Shown here: positions 3,102 through 13,819 of the stretch, in pieces
Layout of the letters: each line of letters begins with the position of its first letter
How positions within the stretch are numbered: the first letter of the stretch is position 1
NCBI RefSeq assembly: GCF_014651375.1
Contig: NZ_BMWT01000005.1
Coordinates: forward strand, 62,001-126,000
Origin: Tateyamaria omphalii
Lineage (GTDB): Bacteria > Pseudomonadota > Alphaproteobacteria > Rhodobacterales > Rhodobacteraceae
Direction: 5' to 3'
Length of the DNA: 64,000 bases
The notes under the pieces: model-generated
Database searches by the model: none
The model's input: the letters and a program-made list of their open reading frames with translations, nothing else
Told to the model about the DNA's origin: nothing
Program-made: the position numbers and the translations under genes

Positions 3102-4253
3102 TCAGTGCGGCTCGCGCCGGTTGCTCGCCATCTGGTCGCGCAACGCGGTCAGCTGCGACAGTAACGGCCGGATCATGTTGCGCTGCGCGTCATTCAAATG
3201 CGTCAAACGTTCTGCCTTTGTCAGCGCGGAGGGCGCAACTGGAATGGTGTCTGGATCGGGATCGTCAGGCACATTGACAATGCTTGGTTTCGGTGCCGCC
3301 ACAGCAGGCTCTGTTTGCTCTGCTACAGCAGTAACCGGTTCGTTGCTGTCAGTGTCGGGCTCTGCATAGTCCGACAGGAATGACGGCAGTGTTGCAGCAG
3401 GCTCCGCCGCGGGTTCTTCAGGTGTCTCTTCAGCCTCTTGTGTTTCCAGGGCTTCCGGTTTCAGTTCCTCAGCCTCAGCCTCAGCCTCAGCCTCAGCCTC
3501 AGCCTCAGCCTCAGCCTCAGCCTCAGCCTCAGCCTCAGCCTCAGCCTCAGCCTCAGCCTCAGCCTCAGCCTCAGCCTCAGCCTTCGGTTCGGCTGGCGCA
3601 GGGGACAAATCCTGCTGCTCGAGCGTTGCCTCTACGATGTCGTCAGTCAGAGCAGGGGCGTCTGCATCTGCTTGCTCGGTATCTTGCGCAGGCGCGTCTT
3701 CGACAAGCGGCGGGTAGGGAAGTCCAGGTCGGTCTTCGCTCTCGGAAGCCTCTGCGGCGGGTGCAGGAGTGAGAAGGAAAGAAGGCAAGGGGGCGTCGGC
3801 GGGCGCCCTTTCCGGCTCTTCGGTATCGGTCTCATCGTCTGTGACGTCTGGCGCTGCCACGTCTTCAGATTCTTGGCCGGCATCGAAAGCTACGACCTCC
3901 GCCTCGACATGTGATGGCGCAACATCTTCGTCGATACTTGCAGCCAAATCTGCATCCAGCTGTGCATCCGTTTCCGCATCAAGAGGAGGGGACAGGTCGG
4001 CGACATGCGCCATGCCTTCTTCGCGCAGAATCTTCTGGACACCCTTGATGGTCAGGCCGTCATCATGCAGCAATTTTCGGATGCCACCCAGCAGCAACAT
4101 ATCGCTGGGACGATAGTACCGCCGACCGCCAGCCCGTTTGACTGGTTTGACTTGGGTGAACTTGCTTTCCCAAAAGCGCAGCACATGGGTCTGAACGCCC
4201 AACCACTCGGCAACTTCCGAAATCGTGCGAAAGGCGTCCGCGGACTTGGCCAT
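3102..4253 (-). CDS. MerR-family transcriptional regulator with long Ala-Glu repeat
   Basis: 383 residues. Residues 8-85 form a MerR-type winged helix ([19 protein letters not shown], then [10 protein letters not shown] and [11 protein letters not shown]). No metal- or drug-binding domain follows. The rest is a long acidic, Pro/Ala/Glu-rich region, probably disordered, containing a run of alternating Ala-Glu encoded by 19 perfect hexamers at 3469-3582. A conserved-looking C-terminal helix ([20 protein letters not shown]) closes the protein. It starts four bases after ihfA ends on the same strand, so the two are probably co-transcribed, as in many alphaproteobacteria. Its target genes cannot be told from the sequence. 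Confidence 0.85.
3469..3582. repeat. Perfect hexanucleotide tandem repeat (TCAGCC)x19
   Basis: Nineteen uninterrupted copies of TCAGCC lie inside the MerR gene, encoding Ala-Glu pairs on the minus strand. Because the unit is six bases, a gain or loss of copies keeps the reading frame and changes only linker length. The copies are perfect as DNA, so the array is young or still changing. Confidence 0.97.
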
Positions 4254-4257
4254 CTGT

Positions 4258-4560
4258 TCAGGACTTGTTGCCTACGGCCACGCGATCTTTCATCAGATGC
4301 GAGGGGCGGAAGGTCAGAACGCGGCGCGGATTGATGGGGACTTCTTCGCCTGTCTTGGGGTTGCGACCGACACGTGCAGACTTGTCGCGAACAGAGAAAG
4401 TGCCGAAAGACGAAATCTTGACCTGCTCTCCACGCACAAGCGCATCTGACATGTGGTCCAGTACACTTTCCACCAGTTGTGCACTTTCATTTCGCGACAG
4501 TCCCACTTCGCGGAACACAGCTTCACTCAAATCCATGCGTGTCAAAGTCTTATCAGTCAT
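4258..4560 (-). CDS. ihfA: Integration host factor subunit alpha
   Basis: 100 residues, the usual IhfA length. It forms a heterodimer with IhfB, binds the minor groove and bends DNA sharply, and acts in transcription, recombination and replication. Diagnostic sequence: [20 protein letters not shown] at the start, [23 protein letters not shown] as the DNA-binding beta arm, and [18 protein letters not shown]. The start at 4560 is chosen over an upstream Met because GGGAGAA precedes it. It lies just upstream of the MerR gene. The divergent AraC-like gene begins 283 bases away. Confidence 0.93.
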
Positions 4561-9034: not shown

Positions 9035-9757
9035 ATGATCGGATTGAAGAAGGGACGCTATGCGGCTCGACAGGCTGAAAGGCCTGCTGACATCGAAGCC
9101 GCACAGGCGTTGCGTGCGCGCTGTTTCGGACTTGCGTCTGACACAGATGCCTTTGATGATCGCTGTACACATATCCTGATCCACCGAGTCGCGGACGATG
9201 CTCTTGTTTGCTGTTTCCGAATGTTGCCTCTGACCGGGACCACGATCTTTAACAGCTATTCGGCCCAGTATTACGAACTCAGCGCGCTCGAAACCTTTGA
9301 TGGTAAGATGGTCGAGATGGGCCGCTTCTGTGTAGATCCTACTGCGGCGGACCCTGATATACTGCGCGTCGCTTGGGGTGCGATGACCGCATATGTAGAT
9401 GATGAAGAGGTCGAACTGCTGTTTGGCTGTTCTTCGTTCGCTGGCACCGAAACGGCAGACTATCTGGATGCTTTCGCGATGCTCAAGGCGCGTCATCTGG
9501 CTCCCAAACGCTGGTTGCCACAGGTCAAGGCGCCCAAGGTCTTCAAATACGCCGCACGGCTGCGTCGCAAGCCGGATGCAAGAAAGGCCATGCTGCGTAT
9601 GCCGCCGCTGCTGCGCACGTATCTGATGATGGGCGGTTGGGTCAGTGACCACGCTGTTGTCGATGACAAAATGAACACACTGCATGTCTTCACAGGGGTC
9701 GAGATCGGGGCGATTCCGCCTGCGCGGAAAAAACTTCTGCGCGCTGTTGTATGCTAG
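9035..9757 (+). CDS. olsB: L-ornithine N(alpha)-acyltransferase
   Basis: 240 residues with a GNAT-like fold. OlsB transfers a 3-hydroxyacyl chain from ACP to ornithine, giving lyso-ornithine lipid, a phosphorus-free membrane lipid. Matching blocks are ALRARCFGLASDTDAFDDRC (family D-x-D-x-D-x-x-C pattern), VEMGRFCVDP, LLFGCSSFAG and the late LLRTYLMMGGWVSDHAVVD. The AGGAGG ribosome site at 9021-9026 supports the start. Many Rhodobacterales carry olsA directly downstream. Here olsA is absent from that position and the accessory peptide locus follows instead. Confidence 0.88.
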   Translation: MIGLKKGRYAARQAERPADIEAAQALRARCFGLASDTDAFDDRCTHILIHRVADDALVCCFRMLPLTGTTIFNSYSAQYYELSALETFDGKMVEMGRFCVDPTAADPDILRVAWGAMTAYVDDEEVELLFGCSSFAGTETADYLDAFAMLKARHLAPKRWLPQVKAPKVFKYAARLRRKPDARKAMLRMPPLLRTYLMMGGWVSDHAVVDDKMNTLHVFTGVEIGAIPPARKKLLRAVVC

Positions 9758-10261
9758 GCTCAAGGCGCGTTTTCTCTGACGAAAAGCTCTTCTTTATCTT
9801 CCGTGACGCTGGTTTTTGACGAAGACTGCTTCGGTACAGCAGTCTGTCGTCATTACAGTCCTTGCGACGGGTTTTCCGGCGTTCATCCGGGGGCGGGTTT
9901 TCACCGACACATTGCACTCAAGCCATGCACAACGCCATGATATCCATGGTCCTGCCTACACACGTCCCACGAGCACTTTGCCGAGTGGACGGAACACTTA
10001 GGTTACCGCTTGGATTTTGCGCAGTGATTCATTTATCGCGACCCAGCTGAGCCGATCTATGCGTCGGGACTTGCTCTAACCATTTGATTTAGCTGCAAGG
10101 TTAGGCAGAAAATTACTCTTGTTGGATTCAACTATGTCGGGTATCTTGTATCTATAGACATTGGTTTTTAGAAAATTCATTCAGGAAAACCGGTCGTGAC
10201 TGACTGTCATCGACGAAGCTCAACTTCCAAAGTACCAACACTTCAACATAAGGAACGCACT
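9758..10261. other. Gene-free region upstream of the repeat-peptide gene
   Basis: About 500 bases with no convincing gene in either strand and no olsA remnant that I can recognise. The right half (10070-10200) is clearly AT-richer than the surrounding chromosome and would hold the promoter of the peptide gene. AAGGAA at 10250-10255 is its ribosome site. Confidence 0.6.
10119..10147 (+). promoter_or_regulatory. Possible promoter of the repeat-peptide locus
   Basis: TTGTTG (10119-10124) and TATCTT (10142-10147) are 17 bases apart in the AT-rich stretch before the peptide gene. The match to the housekeeping consensus is weak; other placements nearby are possible. Confidence 0.3.
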
Positions 10262-10570
10262 ATGTCCGCACTTTTGCACCGGATTCAAAATGACAACGAC
10301 TTTGCGCATGGCCTTCAGGCAAAAGCCCTGGATGTGTACGGTCAAGGTATCGCTGAAGCTCAATGCGGAACAAAACCGCAAGCCCTGTCACCGGCTCAAC
10401 TTGAAACACTGGCTGTAAGCCAAAACGACATCAATGCGAACGCAGATACAACTGCGTTCGACACGACTGCATTTGACACAACCGCGTTTGATACAACGGC
10501 GTTCGACACTACCGCCTTTGATACGACGGCGTTCGATACAACTGCATTTGCAGGCGCTGCGGTCGCCTAG
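10262..10570 (+). CDS. Candidate RiPP precursor peptide with seven DTTAF repeats
   Basis: 102 residues with a good ribosome site (AAGGAA, seven bases before ATG). Residues 1-61 look like a leader: polar, helical, starting MSALLHRIQNDNDFAHGLQAK, with one Cys at about 35. Residues 62-96 are seven perfect DTTAF units, then AGAAVA and stop. The core thus has 14 Thr and no Ser or Cys. The next gene on the strand resembles the dehydrating half of a LanKC lanthipeptide synthetase, which phosphorylates Ser/Thr and eliminates phosphate. Taken together this reads as a leader plus Thr-rich core. The ALLHRIQ start loosely recalls the class III leader pattern L-x-x-L-Q. An alternative is a short pentapeptide-repeat protein, but the residue order does not match the usual A-(D/N)-L-x-x. 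Confidence 0.75.
   Translation: MSALLHRIQNDNDFAHGLQAKALDVYGQGIAEAQCGTKPQALSPAQLETLAVSQNDINANADTTAFDTTAFDTTAFDTTAFDTTAFDTTAFDTTAFAGAAVA
10445..10549 (+). repeat. Seven 15-base units encoding DTTAF
   Basis: Each unit encodes exactly Asp-Thr-Thr-Ala-Phe, but all seven differ in DNA at third positions (for example gatacaactgcgttc, gacacgactgcattt, gacactaccgccttt). Protein identity with silent divergence indicates an old array held constant by selection on the peptide. Confidence 0.97.
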
Positions 10571-10587
10571 TTTGCTTACTCTCCAGA

Positions 10588-10649
10588 GGCCCGATCAGTT
10601 TCCGCAGCTCCGCAAAAGTTTCGAAACTGATTGGGCCCTTCTTATTTCT
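10588..10649 (+). terminator. Intergenic hairpin between peptide and synthetase genes
   Basis: A 15-base-pair stem (10588-10602 with 10623-10637, one G-U pair) with a 20-base loop is followed by the U-rich run CCTTCTTATTTCT. It also contains a 12-base palindrome AGTTTCGAAACT that could form an alternative hairpin. It would stop most transcripts after the peptide gene, giving much more peptide than enzyme. Confidence 0.75.
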
Positions 10650-10664
10650 AGCTTGTCGCTCGAC

Positions 10665-11852
10665 GTGAATGGGCGTTGGGCATCAAGGCCTGCACAATAC
10701 CCTATCCCCGCACAGGGGTGGAAATTTCATATATCAACTATTCCGTCGCGTGCCGAGAATACCCTCAAAGCTGCTTTGGAGGTTTTGGATGAATGCGCCG
10801 CTGCATTTAAAGTGTATGCGAGTTTGTCGCAGTATATGTCCGACTCCTATGCGTTACGAGGCAGCTATTCCCAAAAGGGCAAGTTCATTACGGTCTATCC
10901 CAAAGATTACCGCATGTTTCTGACCCTTGTTACGCGGCTTGGACTGAAGCTGGAAGGCGCGCCGCACTACAAGGTGCCATTTGAAAGGCAAATTCCGGGA
11001 ACACCTATTTTCTACAGATATGGCGCGATGTCTTCGCAAACTCGAACCATCTTGGCCCCGGATGGTACGGAACGTCCCGATAATCGTCAGAAATACCGCC
11101 CAGATTTTATTGTGGACCCCTTGGAACCCTATTTGGAGGAAGATCTTGATGCGAACGATGTTTTGCAGCAGCCGTCTTTCTTTAACCACTATTTGGTAGA
11201 GGATGTACTGAGCCAAAGAGGGCGTGGCGGAAATTATCTTGCCAAGTCACTAAACGATGACCGCAGTGTTTTCGTAAAGGAAGGCCGCAAATTTGGAGAG
11301 CATGACTTTTTTGGCCGCAGCGGACTGTCGAGAGTGGAGAATGAGTGGACCTTCCTCAGCTGTTTGAATGCGCATGGGGTGCCCACACCAGAACCGATTG
11401 AGTTCATCAAAAGCAACAATCACTGCTACTTGGTGACTGAGTTGATTAATATCAGGCGTGATGTGAACTACTCGGAAAGTGAACGAGAGCATATCGCAAA
11501 CAAAATCGCGACCATTGTGAAAAAATGTCACGCAACAGGTATCATATTGGGTGACGTGAAGCTTGAAAATTTTCTGATTGCCGAAGATGACGTTTTTATT
11601 TGTGATCTGGAAACGGCCTCACATGTCACCTGGGATGTATTGCCCTCTGGAGGTACCGAATCCCACCTGCCCAAAAAGAAACGGCTTCATGGCATTTCAA
11701 GGGACAACTATGCCTTGGCGGTTCTCTTGTGTTTCTTTTTTTCCGACCGGTCAACGTCTCATCGCTTCCGTGCGGGCGTCAACATTGCCAAAATGGCAAG
11801 ACAAATACCCGGAGAACTCGGTATCGAGGCGCGCAGGTGGCTTAGGGCCTGA
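10665..11852 (+). CDS. Cyclase-less LanKC-like lyase-kinase (lanthipeptide-type dehydratase)
   Basis: 395 residues from GTG 10665; no in-frame ATG lies early enough, so TTG 10653 or 10572 are alternatives and the start is uncertain. Residues 18-24 GWKFHIS, 72-79 GKFITVYP and 116-120 FYRYG are the blocks I know from the N-terminal lyase part of class III LanKC enzymes. A kinase domain follows: Gly-rich RGRGG (185-189), Lys205 in FVKE, Glu225 in VENE, catalytic GDVKLEN (Asp297, Asn302) and metal-binding Asp314 in CDLE. All catalytic residues are present. The protein ends about 80 residues after CDLE with no LanC-type cyclase, so it is under half of normal LanKC length. Together with the Cys-free Thr-rich peptide upstream, it is predicted to convert Thr to dehydrobutyrine without ring formation. 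Base composition is visibly lower in GC than that of its neighbours. Confidence 0.7.
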   Translation: MNGRWASRPAQYPIPAQGWKFHISTIPSRAENTLKAALEVLDECAAAFKVYASLSQYMSDSYALRGSYSQKGKFITVYPKDYRMFLTLVTRLGLKLEGAPHYKVPFERQIPGTPIFYRYGAMSSQTRTILAPDGTERPDNRQKYRPDFIVDPLEPYLEEDLDANDVLQQPSFFNHYLVEDVLSQRGRGGNYLAKSLNDDRSVFVKEGRKFGEHDFFGRSGLSRVENEWTFLSCLNAHGVPTPEPIEFIKSNNHCYLVTELINIRRDVNYSESEREHIANKIATIVKKCHATGIILGDVKLENFLIAEDDVFICDLETASHVTWDVLPSGGTESHLPKKKRLHGISRDNYALAVLLCFFFSDRSTSHRFRAGVNIAKMARQIPGELGIEARRWLRA

Positions 11853-11867
11853 AGGCGACCAGCCGTT

Positions 11868-11891
11868 CGGCACAGGAGTGCCGTTGGTTTT
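11868..11891 (+). terminator. Terminator after the lyase-kinase gene
   Basis: CGGCAC-AGGA-GTGCCG forms a perfect six-base-pair stem followed by TTGGTTTT. It closes the peptide locus before uup. Confidence 0.6.
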
Positions 11892-12007
11892 GGGTTGATG
11901 GCGCGCCAGAAGTGTCGCCTCGTATAAAGACGCATGGGGGTACAGAAACAGCGCTTGGGATGACACCCAGGTTGACGCCCACGGATTGACCCACTAGCTG
12001 CCCGACC

Positions 12008-13819
12008 ATGGCTCGTGTTCCCTTACTGCAACTTTCCGACATTTCCCTCACCTTTGGCGGTGATCCCGTCTTTGATCAGTTGTCTCTTGTTGTGCAGCCA
12101 GGCGACCGTGTCGCACTCGTGGGCCGCAACGGGTCGGGCAAATCGACCCTAATGAAGGTGATGGGAGGCCTCGTAGATGTGGACCGGGGTGAGGTTGTTC
12201 CGGGGCCCGGTGTGAATGTCGGGTACATGGAGCAAGACCCTGACATGACAGGGTTTGCGACGCTTGGTGATTTTGCCATTCACGGGCTCGAACCCTCAGA
12301 TCTCTACAAGGTCGAGCGTGCCGGTGAAGGGCTAAAATTCGATCCGGCACGCCCCGTGGAAACCGCATCCGGCGGGGAGCGTCGCCGCGCAGCACTGGCG
12401 CGTTTGATGGCGGAAGCGCCTGATCTCATGTTGCTGGATGAACCCACGAACCACCTCGACATCGAAGCCATTGCCTGGCTCGAGGCCGAGCTGAAATCCA
12501 CTCGCGCTGGGTTCGTCCTCATCTCTCACGACCGGGCATTCTTGCGTGCACTTACCCGCGCAACCCTTTGGATTGACAGAGGAATGGTCCGTCGCCAGGA
12601 GAAGGGGTTTGACGCATTCGAGGCGTGGCGAGACACCGTTTGGGAGGAAGAAGACACCGCCCGTCACAAGCTGAACCGCAAGATCAAGGCCGAGGCACGT
12701 TGGGCCGTCGAAGGCATCAGTGCGCGACGCAAGCGCAACATGGGACGGGTGCGCGCACTACAGGATCTGCGTGCCGAACGGGCCTCTCAAATCAAGCGGC
12801 AAGGGGCGGCCGCTATGGCCTTGGACGCTGGACCGAAATCAGGCCGTAAGGTTCTTGAGGCACAAGGTATTTCAAAGACTTACGATGATAAGGTGATCGT
12901 CGAGCCGTTCTCACTCAAGGTCCAGCGCGGTGATCGCATTGCTTTTGTTGGCCCGAATGGAGTTGGTAAAACCACCTTGCTCAAGATGCTGATCGGAGAA
13001 GTGACGCCCGATACCGGCAGCGTCGCGATGGGCACCAATCTGGAACTTGCGATCTTCGATCAGGCCCGCTCGAAACTCGACCCGGATGCCAGCCTTTGGG
13101 ATAGCCTGACAAGCGATCCCGACATGCGGGTCAGTGGTAAGGCCGATCAGGTCATGGTGCGGGGCAATCCGAAGCATGTCGTTGGTTACCTGAAGGAATT
13201 CCTGTTTGATGAAGCGCAGGCGAGGGCGCCCGTAAGATCGCTTTCCGGGGGCGAGAAAGCACGTCTGCTGTTGGCAAGTATCATGGCGCGTCAATCCAAC
13301 GTGTTGGTGCTGGATGAACCCACCAATGATCTGGATGTTGAAACGCTGGACCTGCTGCAAGATTTGCTGGACCAATATGACGGAACTGTCCTGTTGGTCA
13401 GTCACGACCGCGATTTCCTGGATCGTGTGGCGGTCACCACCATTGCCATGGAGGGGGATGGGAAGGCCACTGTGTATGCCGGTGGGTGGAGTGACTACCA
13501 GTCTCAACGTGGCCCCAAAGATGTTGCGCAACCTGTTGAAACAGCGAAGAAACCAGACACTAACGCATCCAAACCCAAGCAGACGCTCAAGGTTGGTCTG
13601 TCCTTCACGGAAAAGCACCGGCTTGAAGCGCTGCCGGCCGAGATTGAACGTCTGGAAGCCGAAATGGCCAAGCTGCAAGAGTTGCTGTCTGACCCCGATC
13701 TCTACACACGCGAGCCAGTCAAATTCCGCAAGGCAACAGAGGCACTTGCTGAACGTCAGGCCAAACTGGACGCTGCTGAAGAAGAGTGGCTGACGCTCGA
13801 GGAAAAAGCCGAAGCCTAG
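12008..13819 (+). CDS. uup: ABC-F ATPase, Uup type
   Basis: 603 residues with two ATP-binding cassettes and no membrane segments. Cassette 1 has GRNGSGKST, SGGERRRAAL and DEPTNHLD; cassette 2 has GPNGVGKTT, SLSGGEKARL and DEPTNDLD. The C-terminal about 90 residues (LEALPAEIERLEAEMAKLQEL onward) are the coiled-coil DNA/RNA-binding tail seen in Uup. ABC-F proteins act on the ribosome or, for Uup, in limiting transposon excision. It is not an exporter, so I do not assign it as the transporter of the upstream peptide. The stop overlaps the convergent acetyltransferase by four bases. Confidence 0.9.
   Translation: MARVPLLQLSDISLTFGGDPVFDQLSLVVQPGDRVALVGRNGSGKSTLMKVMGGLVDVDRGEVVPGPGVNVGYMEQDPDMTGFATLGDFAIHGLEPSDLYKVERAGEGLKFDPARPVETASGGERRRAALARLMAEAPDLMLLDEPTNHLDIEAIAWLEAELKSTRAGFVLISHDRAFLRALTRATLWIDRGMVRRQEKGFDAFEAWRDTVWEEEDTARHKLNRKIKAEARWAVEGISARRKRNMGRVRALQDLRAERASQIKRQGAAAMALDAGPKSGRKVLEAQGISKTYDDKVIVEPFSLKVQRGDRIAFVGPNGVGKTTLLKMLIGEVTPDTGSVAMGTNLELAIFDQARSKLDPDASLWDSLTSDPDMRVSGKADQVMVRGNPKHVVGYLKEFLFDEAQARAPVRSLSGGEKARLLLASIMARQSNVLVLDEPTNDLDVETLDLLQDLLDQYDGTVLLVSHDRDFLDRVAVTTIAMEGDGKATVYAGGWSDYQSQRGPKDVAQPVETAKKPDTNASKPKQTLKVGLSFTEKHRLEALPAEIERLEAEMAKLQELLSDPDLYTREPVKFRKATEALAERQAKLDAAEEEWLTLEEKAEA

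Follow-up and report, generated by a model that had tools for sequence, protein, structure and literature searches.

The stretch of Tateyamaria omphalii DNA analysed here – a window of 64 kb, G000:C5:62001-126000, from a genome listed as 100% complete – carries a two-gene cassette in which the gene for a 102-residue peptide, with a core of seven DTTAF repeats, is followed by the gene for an enzyme related to the lyase-kinase part of class III and class IV lanthipeptide synthetases (LanKC and LanL). The pair probably forms a minimal cassette for a ribosomally synthesised and post-translationally modified peptide (RiPP), in which a LanKC-type dehydratase would turn up to 14 Thr residues into dehydrobutyrine (Dhb) and so yield a linear, periodic product.

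The proposed route follows the LanKC mechanism (PMC10604976, PMC9486802; these and the other papers cited below are drawn on in excerpt) and relies on the conserved catalytic residues of the enzyme. The enzyme would bind the leader of the peptide, its kinase domain would phosphorylate Thr residues of the core, and its N-terminal lyase domain would eliminate the phosphate to leave Dhb, up to 14 times, converting the core into Asp-Dhb-Dhb-Ala-Phe repeats. No ring closure would follow and the product would stay linear, because the enzyme lacks a cyclase domain, the genome yielded no LanC-like protein and the core is free of Cys. Removal of the leader and export would fall to host proteins encoded outside the cassette.

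The evidence set out below concerns the domain make-up and catalytic residues of the enzyme, the absence of a detectable LanC, selection on the repeat, similarity between leaders and horizontal acquisition of the cassette; the peptide is taken to be the enzyme's substrate, with its Thr residues dehydrated and not crosslinked, and with processing, export and use as proposed. It is reasonable to infer a linear poly-dehydrobutyrine product, and crosslinks of the lanthionine, methyllanthionine or labionin type would not be expected where the core lacks Cys. We regard it as evenly balanced whether the pair stands for a RiPP type of its own, defined by a LanKC-type lyase-kinase permanently without a cyclase, a multi-repeat Cys-free core and a linear peptide with a Dhb pair in every five residues, encoded by a cassette that is mobile among Alphaproteobacteria and overlooked by surveys that start from LanC and drop Cys-free cores.

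The precursor peptide and its repeat core

10250..10255, forward strand: probable ribosome-binding site of the precursor gene, AAGGAA, read from the sequence
10262..10570, forward strand: precursor peptide gene (102 residues), from open reading frame (ORF) and translation; its leader can be aligned with those of two Salipiger precursors
10262..10444, forward strand: leader of 61 residues, holding the only Cys of the peptide (C35), from translation and likeness to the Salipiger leaders
10445..10549, forward strand: core (DTTAF)x7, from comparison of the repeats, which differ in third codon positions only
10550..10567, forward strand: C-terminal tail AGAAVA, from translation

Translation confirmed the ORF, the 61-residue leader and the sevenfold repeat that an earlier, sequence-only reading of the window had described, along with the 14 Thr of the core and its lack of Ser and Cys; His and Lys are likewise missing from the core, in which Thr is the only hydroxyl residue. 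That reading had also called the peptide Cys-free, a description that does not extend to the whole peptide, as C35 sits in the leader.

The seven 15-nt units of the repeat differ from one another by a mean of 3.2 nt per pair, yet all of this variation falls at third codon positions: the five third positions all vary, and none of the ten first and second positions does. Silent sites have thus drifted while the amino acids were kept, and the repeat is under selection at the protein level, which maintains the peptide. Two trivial origins of such a repeat, a reading-frame artefact and recent tandem slippage, were ruled out by the same pattern.

A lanthipeptide precursor combines Ser or Thr with Cys in its core, and here Cys is lacking. 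The class III leader motif LLDLQ is absent from the precursor; the N-terminal ALLHRIQ is only loosely alike and was not used. An NCBIfam scan of the precursor gave no NHLP-clan match, and a search with it of the plasmid collection gave no match at an E-value of 1.

Start codon, domains and catalytic residues of the enzyme

10572..11852, forward strand: lyase-kinase enzyme, 426 residues from a TTG start, from ORF, Pfam and NCBIfam matches and PDB matches of its model
10668..11120, forward strand: RamC_N phosphothreonine-lyase-type domain (Pfam), with K51, H53, K80, K104, R149, R172 and the acidic residue E138
11196..11852, forward strand: Ser/Thr kinase domain (Pfam; start approximate, C-terminal end short), with K236, E258, D328, N333, D345 and E347

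The two genes lie in tandem, and the enzyme frame is open from 1 base past the precursor stop. Three in-frame codons are candidate starts: TTG 10572 (426 residues), TTG 10653 and GTG 10665 (395 residues). The first is favoured and the second would also be possible, with no obvious ribosome-binding site at either. The GTG, adopted in the sequence-only reading, is probably too late, because both the alignment with the Salipiger enzyme described below and the NCBIfam LanKC match – which begins at residue 27 of the 426-residue form, 5 residues ahead of the GTG – reach further upstream.

Kinship with the lyase-kinase part of LanKC and LanL, proposed earlier, is supported. Pfam recognises RamC_N (2.4e-25, 89.6 bits; cut-off 27) and Pkinase (3.1e-9, 37.1 bits; cut-off 31.7). 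The best PDB sequence match of the enzyme is ThurKC (3.3e-19), and the 14 best PDB matches of its ColabFold model – mean predicted local distance difference test (pLDDT) 59.5, predicted template-modelling score (pTM) 0.45, from a 4-sequence alignment – are the lanthipeptide synthetases ThurKC, CuvL, SalKC and PneKC. The NCBIfam class III model covers the enzyme only at profile positions 35-428 of 833, with 190.9 bits against an equivalog cut-off of 575, and the class IV model only at positions 13-390 of 851, with 159 bits against a cut-off of 650. Two of the class III features, the RamC_N lyase and the Ser/Thr kinase, are therefore present, whereas the LanC-like cyclase and a score above the equivalog cut-off are not; for class IV (LanL), the zinc-type LanC cyclase and the cut-off score are both lacking. 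Because the defining cyclase and the family cut-off both fail, the enzyme is not classed as a class III lanthipeptide synthetase, though it is related to the front part of LanKC and LanL.

Catalytic residues were equated through an alignment of the enzyme with ThurKC and the residue roles given in the excerpt of PMC10604976, and are numbered on the 426-residue form. The lyase residues K65, H67, K94, K117, R163 and R191 of ThurKC correspond to K51, H53, K80, K104, R149 and R172, and its kinase residues K257 and E279 to K236 and E258; all eight ThurKC residues have been probed by mutation (PMC10604976). In an alignment of 19 enzymes, K104, R149, K236, D328, N333 and D345 are found in 19 of 19, E258 in 18 and R172 in 17, while K51, H53 and K80 are shared by each of the 18 rows extending to that region. 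The alpha-C Glu, earlier given as Glu225, is in fact E258 (227 in the earlier numbering). The earlier claim of conserved lyase blocks and kinase residues is supported for nearly every catalytic residue, the exceptions being one Asp-to-Glu change and one missing Lys, both taken up below.

Absence of a cyclase

That the protein ends where a LanC-type cyclase would start was borne out in three ways: PF05147 (LANC_like) finds no match in it, just 48 residues lie beyond the alpha-F Asp of the kinase, and the LanKC match stops at position 428 of 833. The kinase end was judged by this residue count, since the extent of the Pfam profile proved uninformative: the Pkinase match ends at position 149 of 263 here, but at 151 in the full-length LanKC L053 as well, and that measure was dropped.

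Nor does PF05147 match anywhere in the window's genome, a search for which 14 control genomes gave one positive (Deinobacterium chartae). Among 13 other synthetases, the family matched 12 at E <= 0.001 and reached its cut-off in 11; it scores 23.1 bits (cut-off 23.2) in L053 and misses L014, a 667-residue protein of Carnobacterium. The genome-wide negative is hence strong, not absolute. The missed protein, from a Carnobacterium inhibens plasmid (L014:3956-5959), is itself a RamC_N-kinase protein that continues for about 300 residues past alpha-F without a Pfam LANC_like match, and its tail may be a divergent or degenerate cyclase part.

A related system on a Salipiger plasmid

The nearest related system lies on a plasmid of Salipiger sp. 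CCB-MM3 (NZ_CP014600.1, 170609-172981; L012). Among the 14 plasmid hits opened, its 523-residue protein alone stops soon after the kinase, the other 13 being 667-926 residues long; it scores better as LanL (1.8e-101) than as LanKC (1.6e-75). Upstream of the enzyme gene are two tandem small ORFs (L012:4041-4712; 94 and 91 residues), the first of which is annotated in another frame (4253-4447), and downstream is a gene for an S-adenosylmethionine-dependent methyltransferase. Both precursor cores are rich in Thr, with 12 Thr and 3 Cys each. No LanC-like domain was found on the plasmid, which was the part of the genome searched, the chromosome not being included. One precursor has a weak NHLP-clan match in NCBIfam (0.025, below cut-off), and the second matches only its own record in the plasmid collection.

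The leader of the window's peptide aligns with both Salipiger leaders, and shuffled sequences score as high in 8 of 5000 and 7 of 5000 cases, so that the similarity is significant but modest. The two loci thus share a related leader, a Thr-rich core and a lyase-kinase without a cyclase; the Salipiger locus differs in having two precursors, each with 3 Cys and a core without exact repetition, a longer kinase, a methyltransferase neighbour and a plasmid location. In the enzyme tree, the window enzyme sits on a long unresolved branch (2.58). A tree holding it together with the Salipiger enzyme is not rejected (approximately unbiased test, p-AU 0.571), which does not by itself establish a clade or a single cyclase loss shared by the two enzymes.

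The Salipiger system supports the view that cyclase-less LanKC-type dehydratases are used with Thr-rich peptides. It also weakens the link that had been drawn between a lost cyclase and a Cys-free core: because this system, in which no cyclase was detected on the plasmid, has Cys in both cores, cyclase-less systems need not be Cys-free. The sequence-only reading had named either a Cys-rich precursor or a separate cyclase at the same locus in relatives as counting against it; Cys-bearing precursors did turn up in Salipiger, and a separate cyclase did not on that plasmid.

Weighing the proposal

Several observations weigh against the proposed dehydratase cassette. In ThurKC, the excised lyase-kinase gave neither phosphorylation nor dehydration of its peptide when the cyclase domain was not added (PMC10604976). 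For CurKC (class III) and SgbL (class IV), on the other hand, dehydration is cited as requiring no more than the excised dehydration domain (PMC10676384), and the literature, in the excerpts drawn on, is in disagreement on whether the lyase-kinase acts alone. At the residue level, the equivalent of ThurKC D152, an Asp in 17 of the 19 aligned enzymes, is Glu (E138), and there is no Lys at the position of ThurKC K108, the K108A variant of which formed no dehydro residues (PMC10604976) – a Lys that other rows of the alignment lack too. The kinase end is short, its 48 residues after the alpha-F Asp comparing with 115 in the Salipiger relative and 299-515 in the remaining 17 rows, and the structure model, as its scores and shallow alignment indicate, is modest. 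PF05147 is not fully sensitive, and a divergent cyclase elsewhere in the genome is conceivable. The two-gene cassette shows no evident protease or exporter, and PF03412 (C39 peptidase) has no match in the window's genome, with 8 of 14 controls positive. Finally, the exact precursor-enzyme pair was seen in one genome only, too few for covariation.

Some of these points would also fit a LanKC in decay: having shed its cyclase and a portion of its kinase, it would have ceased to act on the peptide, and the cassette would be a recent passenger. The long tree branch, the short kinase end, the single genome and the lower-GC insertion described below agree with this, as does the inactivity of the ThurKC lyase-kinase without its cyclase (PMC10604976). 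The frame of 426 codons is nevertheless open, with the catalytic residues nearly all intact, the repeat peptide is kept by selection at the protein level, and Salipiger has a second cyclase-less lyase-kinase, with a longer kinase domain, next to peptides with a related leader; we therefore hold decay to be unlikely, if the strongest of the alternatives.

Still less probable is that the core is dehydrated as proposed and then crosslinked, whether in a spontaneous reaction, with the help of a partner that is unrelated or escaped detection, or at a nucleophile beyond the core, such as Cys35 of the leader. Precedents exist, as His serves Michael addition in LanKC-Hbt enzymes (PMC10206099) and class V systems form rings without class I-IV synthetases (PMC9486802), and the Salipiger cores hold Cys where no LanC-like domain was found on the plasmid. 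The core studied here, however, offers no Cys, His or Lys, the window's genome gives no LanC-like match, and Dhb8 of a dehydrated linear NorA variant was unreactive to beta-mercaptoethanol within 5 h (PMC10206099).

Least probable of all is that kinase and lyase act on other proteins, as an effector-like or regulatory enzyme, with the repeat peptide a separate product: stand-alone RamC_N proteins without a Pfam kinase are indeed found elsewhere in the Alphaproteobacteria, even in the same genus, and type III effectors share the lyase fold (PMC10604976), but the order of precursor and enzyme genes, with the enzyme frame open 1 base past the stop, the restriction of the core's hydroxyl residues to Thr and the kinship of the leader with Salipiger peptides adjoining a lyase-kinase all speak against it.

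Comparison with known classes and significance

The class III synthetases (LanKC, including ThurKC, PneKC and SalKC) share with the window enzyme the fusion of an N-terminal RamC_N lyase with a Ser/Thr kinase, the majority of the catalytic residues and DLE in place of DFG; the window enzyme differs in its missing C-terminal cyclase, shorter kinase end and low class III score, and its presumed substrate in the Cys-free repeat core. Class IV (LanL) has the same lyase and kinase halves, and it is the cyclase domain that both the window and Salipiger enzymes lack. Class V (LanK/LanY, cacaoidin) likewise relies for dehydration on a kinase plus a phospho-Ser/Thr lyase, without fusion to a LanC-type domain; unlike the single enzyme here, the two are distinct proteins from other families, and rings are still formed in the product (PMC9486802). 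The separate APH-type kinase and HopA1-type lyase of class V are thus not what the cassette encodes – a single fused protein – and the LxmK model matches at only 0.051.

Linear, Dhb-rich peptides like the proposed product are known among the linaridins (cypemycin and others), which are made by other enzymes. Linaridin families were absent from the NCBIfam and Pfam matches of the enzyme, the genome not having been searched for linaridin enzymes. Linaridins are mentioned briefly in the excerpt of PMC10880069. Among the literature matches listed, mostly open-access abstracts and excerpts, no natural cyclase-less LanKC and no DTTAF repeat is described; a text search for DTTAF returned no peptide of this kind, judging by titles and the openings of abstracts.

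If the dehydratase reading is true, dehydration and cyclisation would be uncoupled within the class III/IV fold, and the periodic core would allow linear peptides rich in dehydrobutyrine to be genetically encoded. A natural enzyme without a detectable cyclase in its genome would also be a clean test of the disagreement between ThurKC (PMC10604976) and CurKC/SgbL (PMC10676384). The pair further exposes a blind spot of surveys such as PMC7268733, in which, according to the excerpt, class III/IV clusters were sorted by LanC-like and kinase domains and ORFs without Cys in the estimated core were discarded; because of these two requirements, the window pair would escape it.

Distribution of related proteins

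RamC_N is rare in the genomes surveyed. Of 385 genomes of the class, 6 had a match at E <= 0.001 (5 above cut-off); the figures were 3 of 390 for the order (2 above), 2 of 394 for the family and 1 of 398 for the phylum sample. These samples overlap, and each includes the window's own genome. With the enzyme as query, 3 of 101 relatives gave a match, itself included. No lyase-kinase without a cyclase other than the window's was seen among the inspected hits of these samples. L001, L002 and L021 are the window itself. Two further hits, neither of which reached the cut-off, were left out of the count of relatives: L011 (G118) and L018 (G655), the latter also carrying two internal TGA codons. The protein of G1186 (L051) extends, by eye, well past the kinase, with 299 residues after alpha-F.

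Five proteins have RamC_N without a Pfam kinase (L003/L007, L008, L009, L010 and L017, of which L010 is just under the cut-off). One, from the window's genus (G013; L017:1156-2064), is a stand-alone lyase of 302 residues with no Pfam kinase or cyclase match, possibly an effector-like or regulatory phosphothreonine lyase. The others are alphaproteobacterial ORFs – L003 859-2064, L008 1138-2772 (minus strand), L010 676-1890 (minus) and L009 1348-1947 (minus) – that match no Pfam family but RamC_N at E 0.001, several of them bearing long extensions of unrelated sequence; three of the four belong to small genomes (1.2-1.8 Mb).

Among 72,556 plasmid records, 58 were matched by the window enzyme and 334 by the Salipiger enzyme. 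A phage origin of the cassette was rejected: the enzyme matches none of 50,697 phage records at E 1e-5, and the sole relative in three viral-contig scans, L020, is a full-length LanKC-like ORF.

The inserted segment and its intergenic elements

9748..11935, no strand: inserted segment with the two-gene cassette, absent from sister genomes, from blastn comparison of the flanks and G+C content
10588..10637, forward strand: inverted repeat with 15-nt arms, 93% complementary and 20 nt apart, just past the precursor stop and before GTG 10665
11868..11883, forward strand: terminator-like hairpin after the enzyme gene, a consensus match only

The cassette was horizontally acquired. It lies on a segment of about 2.2 kb with a G+C content of 49.6%, against 58.3% for the window, and DNA spanning the gene pair was searched for in 20 genomes of the genus, including the window's own. 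In 17 of the other 19, the flanks lie 13-207 nt apart without the cassette; in the two nearest genomes, G004 and G002, the flanks (query 1-1264 and 3453-4415, boundaries rechecked by blastn) are separated by 104 and 100 nt. One genome (G019) showed one flank only. The last (G007) has 815 nt between the flanks, which hold, as read by eye, a different gene, and this suggests that the intergenic site accepts insertions. That gene (L039/L049) encodes a 207-residue protein ending in VPLPAGLPLL...RWRK, a C-terminus resembling a VPxxP-type sorting signal.

No recombinase gene is evident in the inserted segment, and no direct repeats of at least 8 nt were found between 9731-9900 and 11801-12008; two 8-nt inverted matches between these stretches look like chance. 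The gene to the left of the insertion (9035-9757) encodes an acetyltransferase of the GNAT type, which has a match to the autoinducer synthase family as well (1e-6).

Between the two genes, the stretch 10560-10660 is predicted to fold with -31.1 kcal/mol (z -2.60; equalled by 1 of 200 shuffles), and the inverted repeat within it could act as an attenuator or translation brake setting the ratio of precursor to enzyme. It was outside the reach of the terminator scan, which took loops of 3-8 only. In the region, that scan found four terminator-like hairpins; shuffled sequences gave 3.0 on average.

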